Of a stretch of 29,154 nucleotides of DNA, positions 5,553 to 26,766 are shown in pieces. Position numbers and translations under genes: made by a program. The stretch is taken from IMG/VR virus record IMGVR_UViG_3300045950_000308, positions 1-29,154 of that record, one strand, 5' to 3'. The DNA is from a virus. The notes beneath the pieces are model-generated. The model ran no database searches. It saw only the letters and a program-made list of their open reading frames with translations, and was not told the origin of the DNA. How positions within the stretch are numbered: position 1 is the stretch's first letter; the number at the start of each line of letters is the position of its first letter.

Positions 5553-6413
5553 TCACAGTCTGAGCTCCACGATCGGCAGGCTGAACAGATAGTGGAGCGC
5601 CTCCTCGTCTGCTTCACGCCAGGCGTCGAAGCGCGTGCGGAGCTGATCGGTGTCGAAGCGCACGGGCACGTCGAACTCACCGGCCCACGTGAGCGCATCG
5701 GCCGGCTGCGGGTACTTGGCCGCCGTGCCACCGCTGGTGTAGGTGCCGTAGTTCGTCGTGTCGACGCCCAGCGTGAAATGCGTCGAATCGACGTTGGTGA
5801 TGGTGAAGACCAGGTTGTTGACCTGCGTCATGCCCCCCACACCGGTGATGTAGATGAGATTGCCGGTCGAGAACCCGTGCGCCGCCGATGTCGTCACCTG
5901 GCCTGGGTTCGCCTGGGTGATGGCCGTGATGGTCCGCGTCGCGAACGCGGGCATGGTCACGATGCCGGTGGTGTAATCCACCGACGCGCCCGCCTCCGGA
6001 CTCGCGTTGAGGTACACGGTGATGGGGTCGACCGGCTTCACGATCTTCCGCCGGTCGGTCGCCGTGTCCTCCACGTACTCGCGATAGAGCTGATAAGTCG
6101 GCTTGCCGGTCCCGACACCGAGATCGAGCACGCCCTCGGCAGTCGTCACCGCATAATCGGCCCAATCCTTGAACCGGAAACCGAACGCGCGGCCGCGCAT
6201 CGCGCGATAGAAGTCGATGACGGCCTGGAGCTCGGCGCGCGTCAACCGCCGCTCGCCGAGTTCCCAGCGGCCGCGCCCCTCGTTCCAGTTGATGTTGCGC
6301 TTCTCGAAGCCCGATTGAACCACCACCACGTCGGTCGAGAAGAGCGGTCCGCCGGCGGTGTCGTAGAGGACCGCGCCGATGATTTCATTGATGCGGGTCT
6401 CGACGAAGCTCAT
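5553..6413 (-). CDS. DUF2460 distal tail protein with FCCH-like insertion
   Basis: This 286-residue protein is a DUF2460 (TIGR02217) member, a distal tail protein linking tube and hub. The family core is split. Residues 1-158 hold the N-terminal half (GFEKRNINWNEGRGRWELGE, then FYRAMRGRAFGFRFKDWADY), and residues 240-286 the C-terminal half (AGEFDVPVRFDTD, then EADEEALHYLFSLPIVELRL). Between them, residues 160-233 form a foreign beta domain (RTITAITQANPG, AAHGFSTGN, YTSGGTAAK) related to the one in the fibre at 1-1122. Known relatives are nearer 200 residues, so the extra length is the insertion. The ATG overlaps the tape-measure stop by four bases. Confidence 0.92.
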   Translation of the reverse strand: MSFVETRINEIIGAVLYDTAGGPLFSTDVVVVQSGFEKRNINWNEGRGRWELGERRLTRAELQAVIDFYRAMRGRAFGFRFKDWADYAVTTAEGVLDLGVGTGKPTYQLYREYVEDTATDRRKIVKPVDPITVYLNASPEAGASVDYTTGIVTMPAFATRTITAITQANPGQVTTSAAHGFSTGNLIYITGVGGMTQVNNLVFTITNVDSTHFTLGVDTTNYGTYTSGGTAAKYPQPADALTWAGEFDVPVRFDTDQLRTRFDAWREADEEALHYLFSLPIVELRL

Positions 6414-9157
6414 AGATTCCGCCGCGCCCGGCTGAGCGCGATCTGGAGCTCCGCCGCAATCTGACCCTTCGACCGCAGGAAGCTCCCGGCGTCGGGCGTC
6501 ATGACGGTCATCTGGACGTTGACGCCGGCGCCGCGGTTGCGTACGTGCCGCGGATCGTCTTCGGTCAGCACCTCCTCGCCGCGCCGGGCGATGATCGGGA
6601 TCTCATCGGGACGCAGCCCGAGGACTCCGCCATCGTGCAAGCGCGGGGCGCCGGCGAACGCGAGCGCCGGCAGCCGGACGCGCGGCGCGGCGGTCTCGAC
6701 CAGGCCGCCGGCGTGCTTCAGATTGAAGAGCTTGGAGACGAACCCGCCGATCCCGCCGGAGCCGCCACCGCCGCCTTCGAACAGCGATCCGAGCAGCTTC
6801 TCGGCGAACTTCTCGGCCAAGATCCGGTTGATGGCCTTCAGCACGGAGTCGGCGAAGTCGAGAAACGCTTCCTTCGCCGATTTCGCGCCCGTCGTCACGT
6901 CGGTGAACAGATCAGAGAGCGCGTCCTGGAAGGCACCATTGATGCGCTGTGCGACCTCGTCGACGACGAGCTTGACGCTCGCGAGCTGATTCTTGTACTG
7001 CTCGACCGCATTCACCGCCTCCGGACCGATCGACTTCGCCAGGCGCTCGAGCTCGGGGATCAGGCCCTCCACTTCCAGGGCCGTCCGGCCGTGCAGCTCG
7101 AGCACCCGCTCGCGCAGCTGTGCCTCCGTCAGGAGGCCGGCTTCGCGCTGGATCCGCAGCGCATCCTCGGCAGCGCGCATGCGCTCGAGCGACTGCACGA
7201 AGTCGCGCTCGAGCGCCCCGAATTCCGCGCGGGCGGCTTCCACGTTGATGAGCCTCGTCACGACGTCGAGACCCGCCTGGTCGCCTTCCGCCCTCAGACG
7301 TTTGATGAGGTCCCGGAACTCGCGCTCCACAGCGGCCCGCCGATCGGCGGTGGTCGCGGTGCCGGTCAGATCCAGCAGCCGGTCGCGCACGTGGGCGAGC
7401 TCGTCCGCGTGCTCCCGCTCGGCGATGGTGAGCGCGGTGACGGCGTCGAGCTCGACCTGAAGGCGATTCCGAGACAGCACCGTGATCTCGGACTCGAGTT
7501 TCGCGATGCGGCCGAGTGCGGCGACGCGATCGTCCTCATCGGCGGCCGCTGCGACCAGCCGCCTCTCCTCCTCCAGTTGACGCCGCTTGGCGTCGATCTC
7601 CGCGTCGATTTGCGCCTGCGCAATGCGCGTCCGCTCCTCGTAGAAACGCCGGGTGCTGACCGCATTCTGCTCGAGCTGGGCATCGAGGGCCTGCTGCTCC
7701 CGCGTGAGCGCATCGCGCAGCACCGCGAACTGCGCCTCGGCTTCCGCCTCGACGAGCTTGGTGCGCCGCTTCGCCTCTTCCGCGAGATCGGGGGTCACGA
7801 GCGGGGGCAGCTCACCCGGCGGGCCGCCCGCCGTACCGGCTTTCGCCTCGAGCGCCTCGCGCCGCGCCTGGAGCTCCGCGATGCGGGTCTCGATCTGGGC
7901 GATGGCCGCGGCGGCGCGCTCGGGCTTGATGGTCCGCAGTTCAACGCCTCGTCTCAGTTGCTCGAGCTGCATGCGCAGCAGCTCGATCGAGCGGCCGATG
8001 CGCTCGACGTCGGAGACAGTGCGCGGGGCATCGGGGATCAGGCGATCCGCGAGCGCAAAGCCGGCCGCGGCGCCGCCGAGCCGGCCGCCGCCCTTGATGG
8101 CCAATTGCAGCAGCGGGTGCTTGGCGAGCTTCGCGAGCTGATCGGCAGTCGCGCCACCGACGCTCAGTCCGATGAGACCGCCGAGGAAGTTGTCGATCTC
8201 GGTGGAGTGCTGGCCGATCAGGCGGATCAAATCACCGAGGTTCTTGCCGAGGACCTCGGCGCCGGCCCGCACGTCCGGATCTTTCAGCGTCTTGCCGAGT
8301 TCCCGGAAGGTGTCGCTGAGGGCATCCAGGAAACCGCTCTCGGCGAACGCGAGCTTGAGATCTGTGAGCGCGTTCTGGAACTCGACCAGCGCCGCGCGCG
8401 CCGTGCGGGTCGCCGCGGGCACGTCCTTGCCGAATTCCTTGCGGATCTGCTCGGCGAAACGCAGCAGGAACGCGTCGGAGGCGAGCTCGCCGCTCGCGAT
8501 CAGCTTGTTCAGCTCGGCAGTCGTCAAATTGACCGACCGCGCGGCGATCTGGAACGCACCGAACAGGCGGTCGCCGAGTTGCTGGCGCAGCTCCTCGGCC
8601 GAGACGACACCTTTCGACATGATCTGCTGCACGGCGCGCATCGTGCCCGCGAGATCCTCGCCCGAGAGTCCGAGCACCAGCCCCGCCTCCGAGAGCGCGG
8701 TGAAGATCTGCCGGGTGCCCGCGCCCTCGAGGGCCGTGCCGCGCGCAGCCGCCGTGAGCTGCACGAAATTGCGGGTCGCGACGGCGAGCGGGATCCGCAG
8801 CCGCTCGGCTTCGCTGCGCACGAAGGCGAGCGCCGCTTCGGCAGCATCGGCCGACCCCGTGACCGCACGCATCGACGCGCGCAGCGACTGGAACTCCGCG
8901 GCCGTATTGAAGATGTTGCGGATGACCGCGAACCCGCCGAGAACCTGCACCAGCCGCACCGCCGATCGGCGGGTCGCCTCGAGCTGGTCGCTGATGGAGC
9001 GCAGCCCCTGGCGGAGCTGGCCGGTCGCCTTGGCGCTCTCCTGGGCCGCGCCGGTGAAACCGCCGCCCAGCCCGCGGGCGGCCTGGCGCACACGCGCAAT
9101 CGCAGCGGTGGCGAGATCGCGCGCACGAATGATGATGGATAGCTCTTGCTCGGCCAC
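6410..9157 (-). CDS. Tape measure protein
   Basis: This 915-residue protein sets tail length and is threaded inside the tube. The N-terminal 300 residues match the tape-measure N-terminal domain (RSAVRLVQVLGGFAVIRN, then AEFQSLRASMRAVTGS, then GVVSAEELRQQLGDRLFGAF). Residues 320-370 are hydrophobic and glycine-rich. Residues 380-760 are long alpha-helical, charged repeats with coiled-coil character. The C-terminus has the common RLHDGGVLGLRPDEIPIIARRG-type motif (positions about 840-862). At roughly 0.15 nm per residue it predicts a tail of about 135 nm. It starts with GTG at 9157; a TAG codon lies immediately upstream in frame, and a GAGGG Shine-Dalgarno sits 8 bases away, so the start is well defined. 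Confidence 0.95.
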   Translation of the reverse strand: MAEQELSIIIRARDLATAAIARVRQAARGLGGGFTGAAQESAKATGQLRQGLRSISDQLEATRRSAVRLVQVLGGFAVIRNIFNTAAEFQSLRASMRAVTGSADAAEAALAFVRSEAERLRIPLAVATRNFVQLTAAARGTALEGAGTRQIFTALSEAGLVLGLSGEDLAGTMRAVQQIMSKGVVSAEELRQQLGDRLFGAFQIAARSVNLTTAELNKLIASGELASDAFLLRFAEQIRKEFGKDVPAATRTARAALVEFQNALTDLKLAFAESGFLDALSDTFRELGKTLKDPDVRAGAEVLGKNLGDLIRLIGQHSTEIDNFLGGLIGLSVGGATADQLAKLAKHPLLQLAIKGGGRLGGAAAGFALADRLIPDAPRTVSDVERIGRSIELLRMQLEQLRRGVELRTIKPERAAAAIAQIETRIAELQARREALEAKAGTAGGPPGELPPLVTPDLAEEAKRRTKLVEAEAEAQFAVLRDALTREQQALDAQLEQNAVSTRRFYEERTRIAQAQIDAEIDAKRRQLEEERRLVAAAADEDDRVAALGRIAKLESEITVLSRNRLQVELDAVTALTIAEREHADELAHVRDRLLDLTGTATTADRRAAVEREFRDLIKRLRAEGDQAGLDVVTRLINVEAARAEFGALERDFVQSLERMRAAEDALRIQREAGLLTEAQLRERVLELHGRTALEVEGLIPELERLAKSIGPEAVNAVEQYKNQLASVKLVVDEVAQRINGAFQDALSDLFTDVTTGAKSAKEAFLDFADSVLKAINRILAEKFAEKLLGSLFEGGGGGSGGIGGFVSKLFNLKHAGGLVETAAPRVRLPALAFAGAPRLHDGGVLGLRPDEIPIIARRGEEVLTEDDPRHVRNRGAGVNVQMTVMTPDAGSFLRSKGQIAAELQIALSRARRNL

Positions 9158-9164
9158 CTATACT
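9136..9164 (+). promoter_or_regulatory. Candidate sigma70 promoter for the plus-strand membrane gene
   Basis: A TATACT hexamer (9159-9164, five of six matches to TATAAT) is preceded by a 17-base spacer and a TGGATA hexamer (9136-9141, four of six matches to TTGACA). Transcription would begin about 9170-9172, at or next to the ATG at 9171, so the message would be leaderless. This agrees with the lack of a ribosome binding site before that ATG. The elements lie over the start of the tape measure gene on the other strand. Support is sequence match and position only. Confidence 0.45.
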
Positions 9165-9170
9165 GCCCTC

Positions 9171-9392
9171 ATGGACGCCAAGGACGACAGCCCGCGGATC
9201 GAGGCAAATTTCGACCACCGGCTGGGCACCCTGTGCGGTTGGATGGCCCTCGCGGGATTCTTGCTCATGGGGAAGTACGGCGAGTGGGCCACGTGGATGA
9301 CACTCATCGGGCTCATCGGCTGGGTCGCACTCGCGCGGAACAGCCTCATCGTGGTCGCGCTCGTCATCCTACTCGCCGTCATTTTGTTCTGA
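9171..9392 (+). CDS. Small three-TM membrane protein on the opposite strand (moron candidate)
   Basis: This 73-residue protein is the only plus-strand gene inside the tail operon. It fills the gap between the tape measure start (9157) and the end of the frameshifted chaperone (9379), overlapping the latter tail to tail by 14 bases. Its N-terminus is charged (MDAKDDSPRIEANFDHRLG). Three hydrophobic segments follow, at about 21-33, 40-55 and 59-73, ending SLIVVALVILLAVILF. Codon third positions are strongly G/C as in the neighbours, so it looks like a real coding frame. No good minus-strand gene occupies this interval apart from the chaperone end. It probably sits in the inner membrane. Independent transcription, small size and membrane location fit a lysogeny-expressed moron such as a superinfection-exclusion protein, but I recognise no family. 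Confidence 0.68.
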   Translation: MDAKDDSPRIEANFDHRLGTLCGWMALAGFLLMGKYGEWATWMTLIGLIGWVALARNSLIVVALVILLAVILF

Positions 9393-9962
9393 ATACCGGC
9401 TCCTCGAGCGACTTCAACAGCTTGTTGAAATCCTTTTTCGACGCGAGCACGCCCCGCATCAGCACCAGCTGCTGACGCGCCTGCCGCCGCTCGGCGCGCG
9501 CGACGGCGTCGACCAATGCGCGCACCTGCCCGAGCGTGTAGCCTAAGACGTCGGGGAACCGGTGCCCGGCGCCGACGAGGCATTGAACGGCATCCGGCCA
9601 AGCTCGAGGGTCAGGCGGTCCGCCGCTTGGACGAACGCCGGCAGCAGGCGCTGGGCGAAAAAATCGAGGTTGGCCTCCACGACCGCAGTCGCAAGCGGCA
9701 CGATCGCTTCGGCCGGAAGCGCCCCGATCTCATCCACGCTCGCATGCGTCACGATCGCAATCGCTTCGGTCAGGCGCTCGCCGTGCTCCGCGATGAGCGC
9801 CACGACGTCGAAGTCGTCCTTGCCGATCTCCGCCATGAGCGGTCGCACGGCCTTCGTGAACCGCGGCAACTGCCCGATCGTGAGCGGGTGCACCTGGAAG
9901 GTGCGGCCGGCCACCTCGAGGATGGCCGGCTCGACGACGAGCGTCTCCAGGCCCTCGCTCAC
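9379..9962 (-). CDS. Tail assembly chaperone, -1 frameshift fusion (G-T type)
   Basis: This is the predicted 194-residue frameshift product. The ribosome reads residues 1-102 of the upstream frame, slips back one base at the T-TTT-TTC site (9657-9663), and continues for 92 residues in the -1 frame to a TGA at 9379-9381. The extension begins with a proline-rich linker (RPAPAAGVRPSGGPPDPRAW). It then has a protein-like segment containing RFPDVLGYTLGQVRALVDAV and the helical ERRQARQQLVLMRGVLASKK. No ATG or GTG precedes the RFPDVLGYTL segment in this frame, so translating it needs frameshifting. In lambda-type tails the longer product recruits the tape measure and the shorter coats it. The gene lies directly before the tape measure, as expected. 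Confidence 0.72.
9543..9962 (-). CDS. Tail assembly chaperone, short form (G type)
   Basis: This 139-residue protein is the unshifted chaperone product. It starts with GTG, overlapping the tail-tube stop by four bases, and begins MSEGLETLVVEPAILEVAGR. Most of it is helical (LTIGQLPRFTKAVRPLMAEI, then ALIAEHGERLTEAIAIVTHA). Position between tube and tape measure, size and overall look fit the tail assembly chaperones of Mu-like siphophages, which assist tape-measure folding and tube polymerisation and are absent from the virion. The last 37 codons (after Phe102) overlap the -1 frame of the longer product. The terminal residues (NASSAPGTGSPTS) are low-complexity, as expected when that DNA is mainly constrained by the other frame. 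Confidence 0.85.
   Translation of the reverse strand: MSEGLETLVVEPAILEVAGRTFQVHPLTIGQLPRFTKAVRPLMAEIGKDDFDVVALIAEHGERLTEAIAIVTHASVDEIGALPAEAIVPLATAVVEANLDFFAQRLLPAFVQAADRLTLELGRMPFNASSAPGTGSPTS
9657..9663 (-). promoter_or_regulatory. Ribosomal -1 slippery site, T-TTT-TTC
   Basis: On the minus strand, codons 100-102 of the chaperone read GAT TTT TTC, giving a canonical X-XXY-YYZ heptamer (T TTT TTC). Slipping back by one base keeps near-perfect pairing and opens a 92-codon frame. About 20 bases downstream a possible helper stem exists: GGCG and GTCC, separated by a TTC bulge, pair with GGAC and CGCC across a seven-base loop. The heptamer is read directly from the sequence; its activity is inferred from the known behaviour of lambda-like and Mu-like tail chaperone genes. 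Confidence 0.72.
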
Positions 9963-10720
9963 GCCAGGTCTCGGATCCGGCCGAACTGCCCGAGCGGATC
10001 GGAGGAGAGCTTGGTGTCGTCGAGCAGCGCCTTGCCGGTCAGGTCATAGCCGGCGAACTCGTTGCCGATCAACGCGAGCTCGGAGAGCGGCGCGAACTGT
10101 CCCTTGTAGAGGTCCACCTGGATCTTGGAGTCGCTGTTGGCCGTGTTGAGCCCGTCGAACCGGATCCAGCGCACCGGCGGCGGGTTCTTGAACATGCCGA
10201 CGTCCTTGCGCGCGCCGTAGGTGTAATCCGCCTTAAAGGGCTGCGTGTAGGCCCCGAGGTTGAGGATCTTGATGCGGCCGAACCCGTCATCCTCGATGGA
10301 ATAGTCGGTGTTGAGCACCAGCGTCGCCGGGGTGCCCGCGCTGTCCTTGACGGTGACAGAGGAGATCTTCGGGTGCTTGGTCGCCACGACGTCACCCACC
10401 ACGAGCCCGCTCGGGAATGCCTCATTGGTGACCGAGGCGCCCGTCACGGTGACCTTGGTGCCGAACAGCCCGAGCGCGAGGTTGTCGAGATCGAAGGACT
10501 CGAGCCGCGCGGTAAAATTGGCCCGCTTCGCGGTGATGAGGGTGGCATCGACCAGGCGCTGCCCGGAGTAGCTCTCGGTGTGCTCCTCCTCCTCGGTCTC
10601 GAACTGCACGCTCAGGCCGTTGACGTTGCCGACCCACACGAGCTGCTTGTGATTGCCGCTGCCGTCGCGCTCGGCGACGTAGACGCGGCCCTGGCCGCTG
10701 AAGTAGAGGTTAGTTGCCAT
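9959..10720 (-). CDS. Major tail tube protein
   Basis: This 253-residue protein is the probable tail tube subunit of a siphovirus-type tail. It begins MATNLYFSGQGRVYVAERD and is beta-rich throughout, with blocks such as VWVGNVNGLSVQFETEEEEH and the C-terminal APLSELALIGNEFAGYDLTG that resemble tube proteins of B3/D3112-type Mu-like phages. The ATG at 10720 has an AAGGGAGA Shine-Dalgarno about 10 bases upstream. Its stop overlaps the chaperone GTG by four bases. No sheath gene is present between the terminator and the tube, which argues for a non-contractile tail despite the Mu-like head genes. Confidence 0.87.
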   Translation of the reverse strand: MATNLYFSGQGRVYVAERDGSGNHKQLVWVGNVNGLSVQFETEEEEHTESYSGQRLVDATLITAKRANFTARLESFDLDNLALGLFGTKVTVTGASVTNEAFPSGLVVGDVVATKHPKISSVTVKDSAGTPATLVLNTDYSIEDDGFGRIKILNLGAYTQPFKADYTYGARKDVGMFKNPPPVRWIRFDGLNTANSDSKIQVDLYKGQFAPLSELALIGNEFAGYDLTGKALLDDTKLSSDPLGQFGRIRDLA

Positions 10721-19105: not shown

Positions 19106-19295
19106 CGATCCCCCCGCCGGCCCTTTGCCCGGGACCTTGTTTAAAAACGCCGCAGCGTGTTTAAAAAAACGTCCTGTGTACTTGCCCAGCGGGATCGACC
19201 CGATCGCCGCTCAGGGCGCGTTTAATGCAGGATCCGTGATTTTCGCGGAATGTGCGCAGTCTCAGCCATCGACGTGACGGTCGGGTAGTGCCTCA
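19106..19295. repeat. Intergenic direct repeat, distal copy
   Basis: This is the copy nearer the protease gene. It contains a GC-rich lead (CGATCCCC, then GCCCGGGACCTTG), paired AT-rich motifs (TTTAAAAACG at 19141 region and again near 19160), and a 71-base core (19189-19259) that differs from the other copy by one base. It ends with about 24 bases that match the last eight codons of the gpG-like gene at 20 positions, a decayed gene end. The copies sit 237-247 bases apart. Confidence 0.88.
19184..19217 (-). terminator. Stem-loop in distal repeat copy
   Basis: On the plus strand GCCC (19184-19187), AGCGG (19188-19192) and GATCG (19193-19197) pair with CGATC (19201-19205), CCGCT (19207-19211) and GGGC (19214-19217), leaving a three-base loop and two small bulges. 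In the minus-strand transcript a run of seven U follows about 13 bases later, which is farther than in a typical intrinsic terminator. It may act as a weak terminator or attenuator between the gpG and protease genes. Confidence 0.55.
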
Positions 19296-19342
19296 GTTTG
19301 AATCTCGACCTTCTGCGTAGTCACTCTGCCGGCCGTTCGGGG

Positions 19343-19532
19343 CGATCCCCGCCGCCCCTCTGCCCGGGGACCTTGATTAAAAACGCCGTAGCTTGATTAA
19401 ATCGATATCAAACCGATCGCGCTGGTACTGTCCCCGCGGGATCGACCCGATCGCCGCTCAGGGCGCGTTTAACGCAGGATCCGTGATTTTCGCGGAATGT
19501 GCGCAGCTCAGCCGTCGGCGAGACGGTCGAGA
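19343..19532. repeat. Intergenic direct repeat, proximal copy overlapping the end of gpG
   Basis: This is the copy nearer the gpG-like gene and includes its stop codon and last few codons (19508-19532). The 71-base core is 19436-19506. The AT-rich motifs here read TTGATTAAAAACG and TTGATTAAATCG, and the spacer before the core is about 10 bases longer than in the distal copy. With the distal copy it makes up most of the 517-base non-coding region between the gpG and protease genes (18991-19507). The rest of that region, apart from the dyad at 19028, shows nothing else I recognise. Confidence 0.88.
19433..19463 (-). terminator. Stem-loop in proximal repeat copy, after gpG
   Basis: The same hairpin as at 19184-19217: GCGG (19436-19439) and GATCG (19440-19444) pair with CGATC (19448-19452) and CCGC (19454-19457), and CCC (19433-19435) pairs with GGG (19461-19463). 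It starts about 45 bases after the gpG stop on the minus strand. The outer arm differs from the other copy yet still pairs, which supports a conserved structure. No close U-tract follows. Confidence 0.55.
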
Positions 19533-26199: not shown

Positions 26200-26766
26200 T
26201 CACAGCCGCTCCAGGCGCCTGTGAATGAACACCGCCCACTGGTCGACCTGCGGGTACAGGAAGTCGTCGTTGTGCCGCCAGAACTCCCGCTCGCTGTAGA
26301 CCGGCGCCTCGATGTTCTCGATCCGCTCATCGAGAAAGCCGAAGCGGCCGGCGTCGCCGAAATCGTTGAACGGCAGCCGCTTGCCCCACTTGATCGCCCG
26401 GTCCTGCGGCGAGTGGATGCAGACGACGCGGTGCTGCCCGCGCGGGAGGAAGAAGTCGCGGTTCATCGCCGGGCGGAACAGGAACGCCGCCGTGCAGAGA
26501 TAGCCGAGTTCCCACATGCGCCAGGCGACCAGGCACCCTCTCGAGTGGGCGACGACGACGCAGCCGCCGGCAGGCCAATATCGGCGCGCGATCTGGACGG
26601 CGTCGGCGAACTGGCGGCCGCGGTCGTAGGTCTGGAACCGGCCGAGGCGGGTTTCCCGGTAGTTGCAGTCAACCGCGGTGTGGCCGAGCAGCTCGAGCGT
26701 TTGCAGCAGCGTATCCGTCGTGCCGCTGCCGTCGGTGCCGACGCCGTTGATCCCGAGCACGTGCAT
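26200..26766 (-). CDS. Alpha/beta-hydrolase fold protein in the lysis block
   Basis: This 188-residue protein looks like a small serine hydrolase. It starts with a short strand and a glycine-rich turn (MHVLGINGVGTDGSGTTDTL). It has a nucleophile elbow in VVVAHSRGCLVAW (Ser75 in A-H-S-R-G), a candidate acid Asp122 in HSPQDRAIKWGK and a candidate His165 in FWRHNDDFLYP. The order Ser-Asp-His is right for the fold. The substrate is unknown; an esterase or lipase acting on the envelope would fit its place beside the endolysin, but there is no signal peptide, so release would depend on lysis or a holin. Alternatively it modifies a small cytoplasmic molecule. It ends seven bases before the zinc-finger gene. 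Confidence 0.78.
   Translation of the reverse strand: MHVLGINGVGTDGSGTTDTLLQTLELLGHTAVDCNYRETRLGRFQTYDRGRQFADAVQIARRYWPAGGCVVVAHSRGCLVAWRMWELGYLCTAAFLFRPAMNRDFFLPRGQHRVVCIHSPQDRAIKWGKRLPFNDFGDAGRFGFLDERIENIEAPVYSEREFWRHNDDFLYPQVDQWAVFIHRRLERL

Follow-up and report, generated by a model that had tools for sequence, protein, structure and literature searches.

The window analyzed here is a 29,154-base virus record, which represents a Mu-like siphophage. It encodes a gpT major head protein, a Mu portal and a Mu F protein (Pfam), as well as a D3112-type tail tube, a chaperone and a TMP_3 tape measure (Pfam/PHROG). Every virion gene is encoded by the minus strand, and the gene at 9171-9392 runs the opposite way. 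Three HTH genes at 28.2-29.15 kb are repressor- and Ner-like, and the phage is thus consistent with a temperate Mu-like phage. Elsewhere in the window, a pair of direct repeats (one of 82 nt with 95% identity, one of 38 nt with 87%) with a spacing of ~240 nt occupy positions 19128-19506, in a spacer near the head protease; the anti-CRISPR gene of D3112 is found in the same neighbourhood. A minus-strand gene upstream of the terminase genes (26203-26766) encodes a 188-aa protein that weakly matches an alpha/beta hydrolase family (PF12697, E = 0.0016) and is possibly lysis-related.

The inverted gene fits between the start codon of the tape measure gene (9157, minus strand) and the stop codon of the chaperone extension (Table 1). 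At their 3′ ends, the inverted ORF and the frame-shifted chaperone ORF overlap by 14 nt. The extension has a homologue in phage Summit, where it is annotated as a frame-shift product. It is in the -1 frame, as seen at positions 9543-9600 of the minus strand.

Table 1. Features at the junction of the chaperone and tape measure genes, and inverted genes found at the same junction elsewhere
Feature	Position	Strand	Basis
Tail tape measure protein (TMP_3), 915 aa, GTG start	6410..9157	-	Profile matches
-35 element TGGATA, inside the opposite-strand tape measure gene at its 5′ end	9136..9141	+	Promoter scan
-10 element TATACT, predicted leaderless start	9159..9164	+	Promoter scan
GAGGG, probable tape measure Shine-Dalgarno	9166..9170	-	Read from sequence
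73-codon membrane-protein gene (inverted moron, as proposed here), ATG to stop, 73 aa, no family match	9171..9392	+	ORF, codon model, hydropathy, AlphaFold2
Frame-shifted chaperone extension (...DVLGYTLGQVRALVDAVARAERRQARQQLVLMRGVLASKKDFNKLLKSLEEPVFRTK)	9379..9600, start approximate, stop codon 9379-9381	-	Homology to Summit product
Tail assembly chaperone (phrog_1442)	9543..9962	-	PHROG match
Major tail (tube) protein	9962..10720	-	Query for gathering junction relatives
Slot occupant groups: window; L050/L065; L024/L077/L061; L043/L044/L055; L052; L057; L062			
Further slot occupants: L040; L128; L131; L156; L180; L029; L130; L150			
Lipoprotein slot occupants: L075/L076; L171			
Slot occupants in bacterial genomes: L212; L217; L227; L229			

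An inverted gene with its own predicted promoter

The earlier note had described a 73-codon plus-strand frame with strong third-position bias between the tape measure and chaperone genes, and both observations stand. The GC contents at the three codon positions are 0.59/0.41/0.89. These values resemble those of the phage's own genes, and the codon statistics of the frame equal those of such genes and fall outside the non-coding range. Under a codon model trained on 13 genes of the window, the frame scores +32.7 bits, and real 73-codon pieces of the phage have a median of 33.7 bits. The best of 415 wrong-frame pieces reached -7.1 bits. We considered the possibility that the frame is a spurious one, open by chance in a GC-rich spacer. 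An ORF as long as 73 codons occurs in 44% of simulated gaps of the same composition, and thus length alone proves nothing; the lack of any homologue of the 73-aa protein in our searches would also suit a spurious frame. However, an ORF that both spans the gap and carries an equally strong hydrophobic segment occurred in only 0.00015 of the simulations, the codon score is far from that of every wrong-frame piece, a promoter lies at the right distance, and the arrangement recurs in other phages. We consider a spurious frame highly improbable. That 9171-9392 is a genuine gene is well supported, and the codon model is decisive.

The promoter TGGATA-17-TATACT, which the earlier note had also pointed out, is the sole sigma-70-like match in 2 kb (0.1 expected) and outscores all 77 control windows taken antisense to the tape measure gene. 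The -10 element ends 6 nt before the ATG and no Shine-Dalgarno sequence was seen before this codon, which makes the leaderless placement proposed in that note a fair reading. The GAGGG of the tape measure gene falls between the -10 element and the ATG, so the start regions of the two genes are interleaved. No intrinsic-terminator-like site was detected within 8500-10500. Morons commonly, but not universally, have their own terminator.

The junction in other phages and prophages

We gathered relatives of the junction via the tail tube and via the tape measure. Loci gathered via the J-like tail protein were set aside as mosaic relatives that are uninformative on the junction. The chaperone-tape measure junction is empty in D3112, in Summit, in L122 and in most of about 100 loci, and it is occupied in the window. 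In L122, which has a tape measure segment 60% identical to that of the window, the stop of the chaperone gene and the start of the tape measure gene overlap. The contig of L002, a close tape measure relative, stops short of the junction. Where relatives did not have an empty site, they had a different inverted membrane gene, and decayed copies were not found. The earlier note had named lack of conservation as a reason to doubt the frame. This holds in its weak form, as no relative of the frame was found, and not in its strong form, which would be copies in decay. The gene is present in the window and missing from this junction in relatives, it has a good predicted promoter independent of the operon, and unrelated inverted membrane genes are its counterparts in some relatives. 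These features support the earlier proposal that it is a moron.

About 20 phage and prophage groups have small inverted genes at the chaperone-tape measure junction (Table 1). Two of the loci belong to lysogens, L024 to Pseudomonas thermotolerans DSM 14292 and L040 to Paenacidovorax caeni R-24608. The recurrent pattern is a small membrane-protein gene that is inverted relative to the late operon and stands head-to-head with the tape measure start. We evaluated this pattern in 112 viral and prophage loci, limiting the slot count to loci with a direct tape measure match; the automatic frame is unreliable in some, for example L055, L061 and L042. All 12 distinct head-to-head, coding-like inverted ORFs carry a strong hydrophobic segment (mean hydropathy of 1.7 or more), and the product of each is a membrane protein or a lipoprotein. 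Of the 58 inverted coding-like ORFs at other positions in these loci, only 6 are hydrophobic (Fisher p = 1.7e-9). Because the head-to-head definition was chosen after seeing this first data set, we took a second set of 754 bacterial genomes from two classes, with about two dozen tape measure genes. Its four inverted slot ORFs (L212, L217, L227 and L229) are all hydrophobic, and this set is the sole independent check.

Promoters were compared across 21 occupants by taking the best site with a -10 element 5-9 nt before the start codon, and antisense-strand ATG/GTG codons of the same regions served as controls. Leaderless-type promoters are enriched at the slot (p = 1.7e-7). The promoter scores above every control of its own locus, without a Shine-Dalgarno sequence, in the window and in L050, L052, L057, L128, L180, L040, L227 and L229. 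The genes of L062, L131, L150 and L171 have a Shine-Dalgarno sequence and no leaderless-type promoter. Overall, a recurrent slot for inverted membrane genes beside the tape measure gene is well supported.

In L024, L043, L057 and L077, the start codons of the tape measure and inverted genes, which stand head-to-head, overlap or abut around a CATG palindrome, and these inverted genes have no clear Shine-Dalgarno sequence.

Three occupant groups (L024/L077/L061, L043/L044/L055 and L050/L065) are conserved as proteins, with 39-98% identity among members in different phages. Scans of IMG/VR with two of the conserved groups recovered only copies in the slot, so these two groups are rare and slot-bound within the reach of word-based scans. 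With lengths of 42 and 44 aa, respectively, the short occupants of L029 and L131 are less certain. The inverted 159-aa lipoprotein of L171 (about 1700-2180) matches phrog_1353 (E = 3.5e-21, unknown function). The frame of L217 reads MAIISCPECGHQVSDKAASCPSCGTPL and encodes a zinc-ribbon membrane protein, for which match scores are approximate given the provisional N-terminus of the query. On the inverted strand, the L150 junction carries three consecutive genes, preceded by good Shine-Dalgarno sites and encoding an 87-aa coiled-coil-like protein and two single-TM peptides of 38-41 aa. Given the lipoproteins, the zinc-ribbon protein and the three-gene operon, the membrane morons of the slot may differ in function. 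The chaperone and the inverted membrane gene are separated by a late-strand gene in L043 (4747-5822), L077 (4753-5905), L050 and L065; that of L077 is a DUF2513 gene (Pfam E = 5e-22) and the other copies look alike. The slot thus collects genes in both orientations. None of the eight slot proteins checked had a convincing match to the PADLOC defence families.

The protein and its candidate roles

The 73-aa product, MDAKDDSPRIEANFDHRLGTLCGWMALAGFLLMGKYGEWATWMTLIGLIGWVALARNSLIVVALVILLAVILF, is predicted to have a charged N-terminus followed by two or three membrane helices. Hydropathy rises through three maxima of increasing strength (about 17-33, 39-57 and 57-73). A single-sequence AlphaFold2 model has two helices, 7-31 and 33-72 (pLDDT 80, pTM 0.47). 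Prediction thus agrees with the membrane location proposed in the earlier note, and the proposed three TM segments fit the hydropathy maxima but not the two-helix model. A homology search, also suggested there, provided neither a homologue nor a family. The protein has no match in Pfam, PHROG or PADLOC, neither to any exclusion family in Pfam or PHROG nor to the Imm_superinfect profile (PF14373). No homologues were retrieved from phages, plasmids, IMG/VR or GTDB genomes, and we note that the IMG/VR and GTDB scans require a shared peptide word and that distant relatives could escape them. Comparison with HK97 gp15 gave a score of 29 (p about 0.1 against shuffles), which indicates no relationship. 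The best similarity to a slot-mate, that of L057 (z = 3.3, p = 0.006), was rejected because it is one of 16 comparisons of hydrophobic sequences, and no similarity to any slot-mate survives correction for this number. Because the protein has no homologue or family, the functional interpretation rests on slot-mates of different sequence.

Two independent pointers favour superinfection exclusion. HK97 gp15, a gene annotated between the chaperone and tape measure genes, is a proven superinfection exclusion moron (Cumby et al. 2012, as cited in PMC10883804). The other pointer is the inverted slot protein of L065, a locus whose tape measure protein is 44% identical to that of the window. This protein matches PF14373, ‘Superinfection immunity protein’, at E = 4.9e-6, with a score just under the Pfam curated cut-off (26.8 vs 27.9 bits), and the PHROG annotated as ‘immunity to superinfection’ is matched at E = 0.004. 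The homologous protein of L050 has weak matches to PF14373 (0.033) and to the same PHROG annotation.

We propose with moderate confidence that the gene is a moron whose inner-membrane product is made by the prophage and excludes phages as their DNA enters, and that late transcription silences the gene on crossing it. We infer lysogen expression, exclusion activity, action at DNA entry and antisense shut-off, which would be connected as follows. With the late genes silent in the lysogen, transcription would start from the sigma-70 promoter with no need for a phage factor, and the leaderless mRNA would give rise to an inner-membrane protein. This protein would most likely be a superinfection exclusion factor acting at DNA entry, when the tape measure protein of the infecting phage encounters the inner membrane, and the block would hit phages with a similar tape measure. 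Upon induction, late transcription across the gene from the other side would generate antisense RNA and turn the gene off while virions are made. More tentatively, and as a less likely reading, the junction could be a dedicated and widespread siphovirus exclusion slot. Unrelated membrane proteins would have been inserted there repeatedly, head-to-head and often with leaderless lysogen promoters. Each would be matched to the tape measure protein encoded next to it, and a prophage would thereby exclude phages that share its entry machinery; each would also be auto-silenced by late transcription.

Other roles were weighed against exclusion. A membrane moron could serve lysogenic conversion in another way, for example in uptake, conjugation, motility or envelope stress, and the diversity of the occupants, which include the lipoproteins of L075 and L171 and the zinc-ribbon protein of L217, would accommodate this, as would a window protein without a family. 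This role would make the adjacency to the tape measure gene accidental, however, and both HK97 gp15 in the slot and the Imm-like protein of L065 point to exclusion; we regard it as unlikely. The inverted promoter might alternatively act as a regulatory device that mainly makes antisense RNA against the chaperone, tube and head genes and keeps the late genes silent in the lysogen, with the peptide being secondary. Transcripts could indeed run on, as there is no terminator after the ORF, and the orientation against the operon is a constant feature. Yet the ORF equals structural genes in the strength of its codon signal, the occupants with a codon signal are all membrane proteins, and three groups are conserved as proteins, which antisense RNA would not need. 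We therefore find a regulatory device improbable. The size and hydrophobicity of the protein, the marginal holin match of L077 (E = 0.1) and late transcription that would be antisense to the gene are all compatible with a lysis-related holin or antiholin, or with a type I toxin peptide checked by the late antisense transcript. Against this, the orientation and promoter imply that the gene is off in the late phase, when holins act, the window protein has no holin or toxin family match in Pfam or PHROG, and the gene is inside the tail operon rather than a lysis module. A lysis or toxin role is quite improbable.

Novelty and relation to known systems

Morons, exclusion proteins and, from HK97, the slot itself are already known. 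In the open full-text literature searched, we found no account of membrane genes that recur in this slot in an inverted and leaderless form, and such a membrane-moron slot appears to be undescribed there. The nearest precedent is an HNH gene between the chaperone and tape measure genes of cluster O mycobacteriophages (PMC4351075). Most slot proteins are too short and divergent for homology-based defence finders. If our interpretation is true, genome position alone, inverted and head-to-head with a tape measure gene, predicts a large number of small membrane proteins that lack annotation and probably have a role in common, and exclusion genes are physically tied to the tail gene that they may act on. 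They would then be natural inhibitors that make the crossing of the inner membrane by siphovirus DNA testable. A layout that is both inverted and leaderless hints at a simple form of control, with the gene on in the lysogen and off under late transcription.

Several known systems act in comparable ways. P22 SieA, TP-J34 Ltp and Tuc2009 Sie2009 are prophage-expressed membrane proteins that stop DNA injection, and changes in the tape measure protein overcome Ltp; the excerpts of PMC10883804 do not place them in the chaperone-tape measure slot. SNIPE is a membrane defence with the tape measure protein as its partner (PMC13190303). The Tab protein of JBD26, a related Mu-like siphophage, is the product of a prophage-expressed moron and acts through the tape measure protein. 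It differs in that its gene lies between the terminase genes and it blocks tail assembly, and the sections of PMC10884400 at hand do not describe it as a membrane protein. Imm_superinfect (PF14373) is a small membrane protein that is approached by the slot-mate in L065, which has the same orientation, and not by the window protein. HK97 gp15 is transcribed together with the late genes and has an annotated terminator after it, whereas the window gene is inverted, and its predicted leaderless promoter lies within the tape measure gene. The two proteins have no sequence similarity, with one hydrophobic stretch in gp15 and two or three in the window protein. Nevertheless, both are very small, predicted inner-membrane proteins encoded by apparent morons in the same slot. 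By analogy, it is reasonable to suppose that the window protein blocks DNA entry of related phages.
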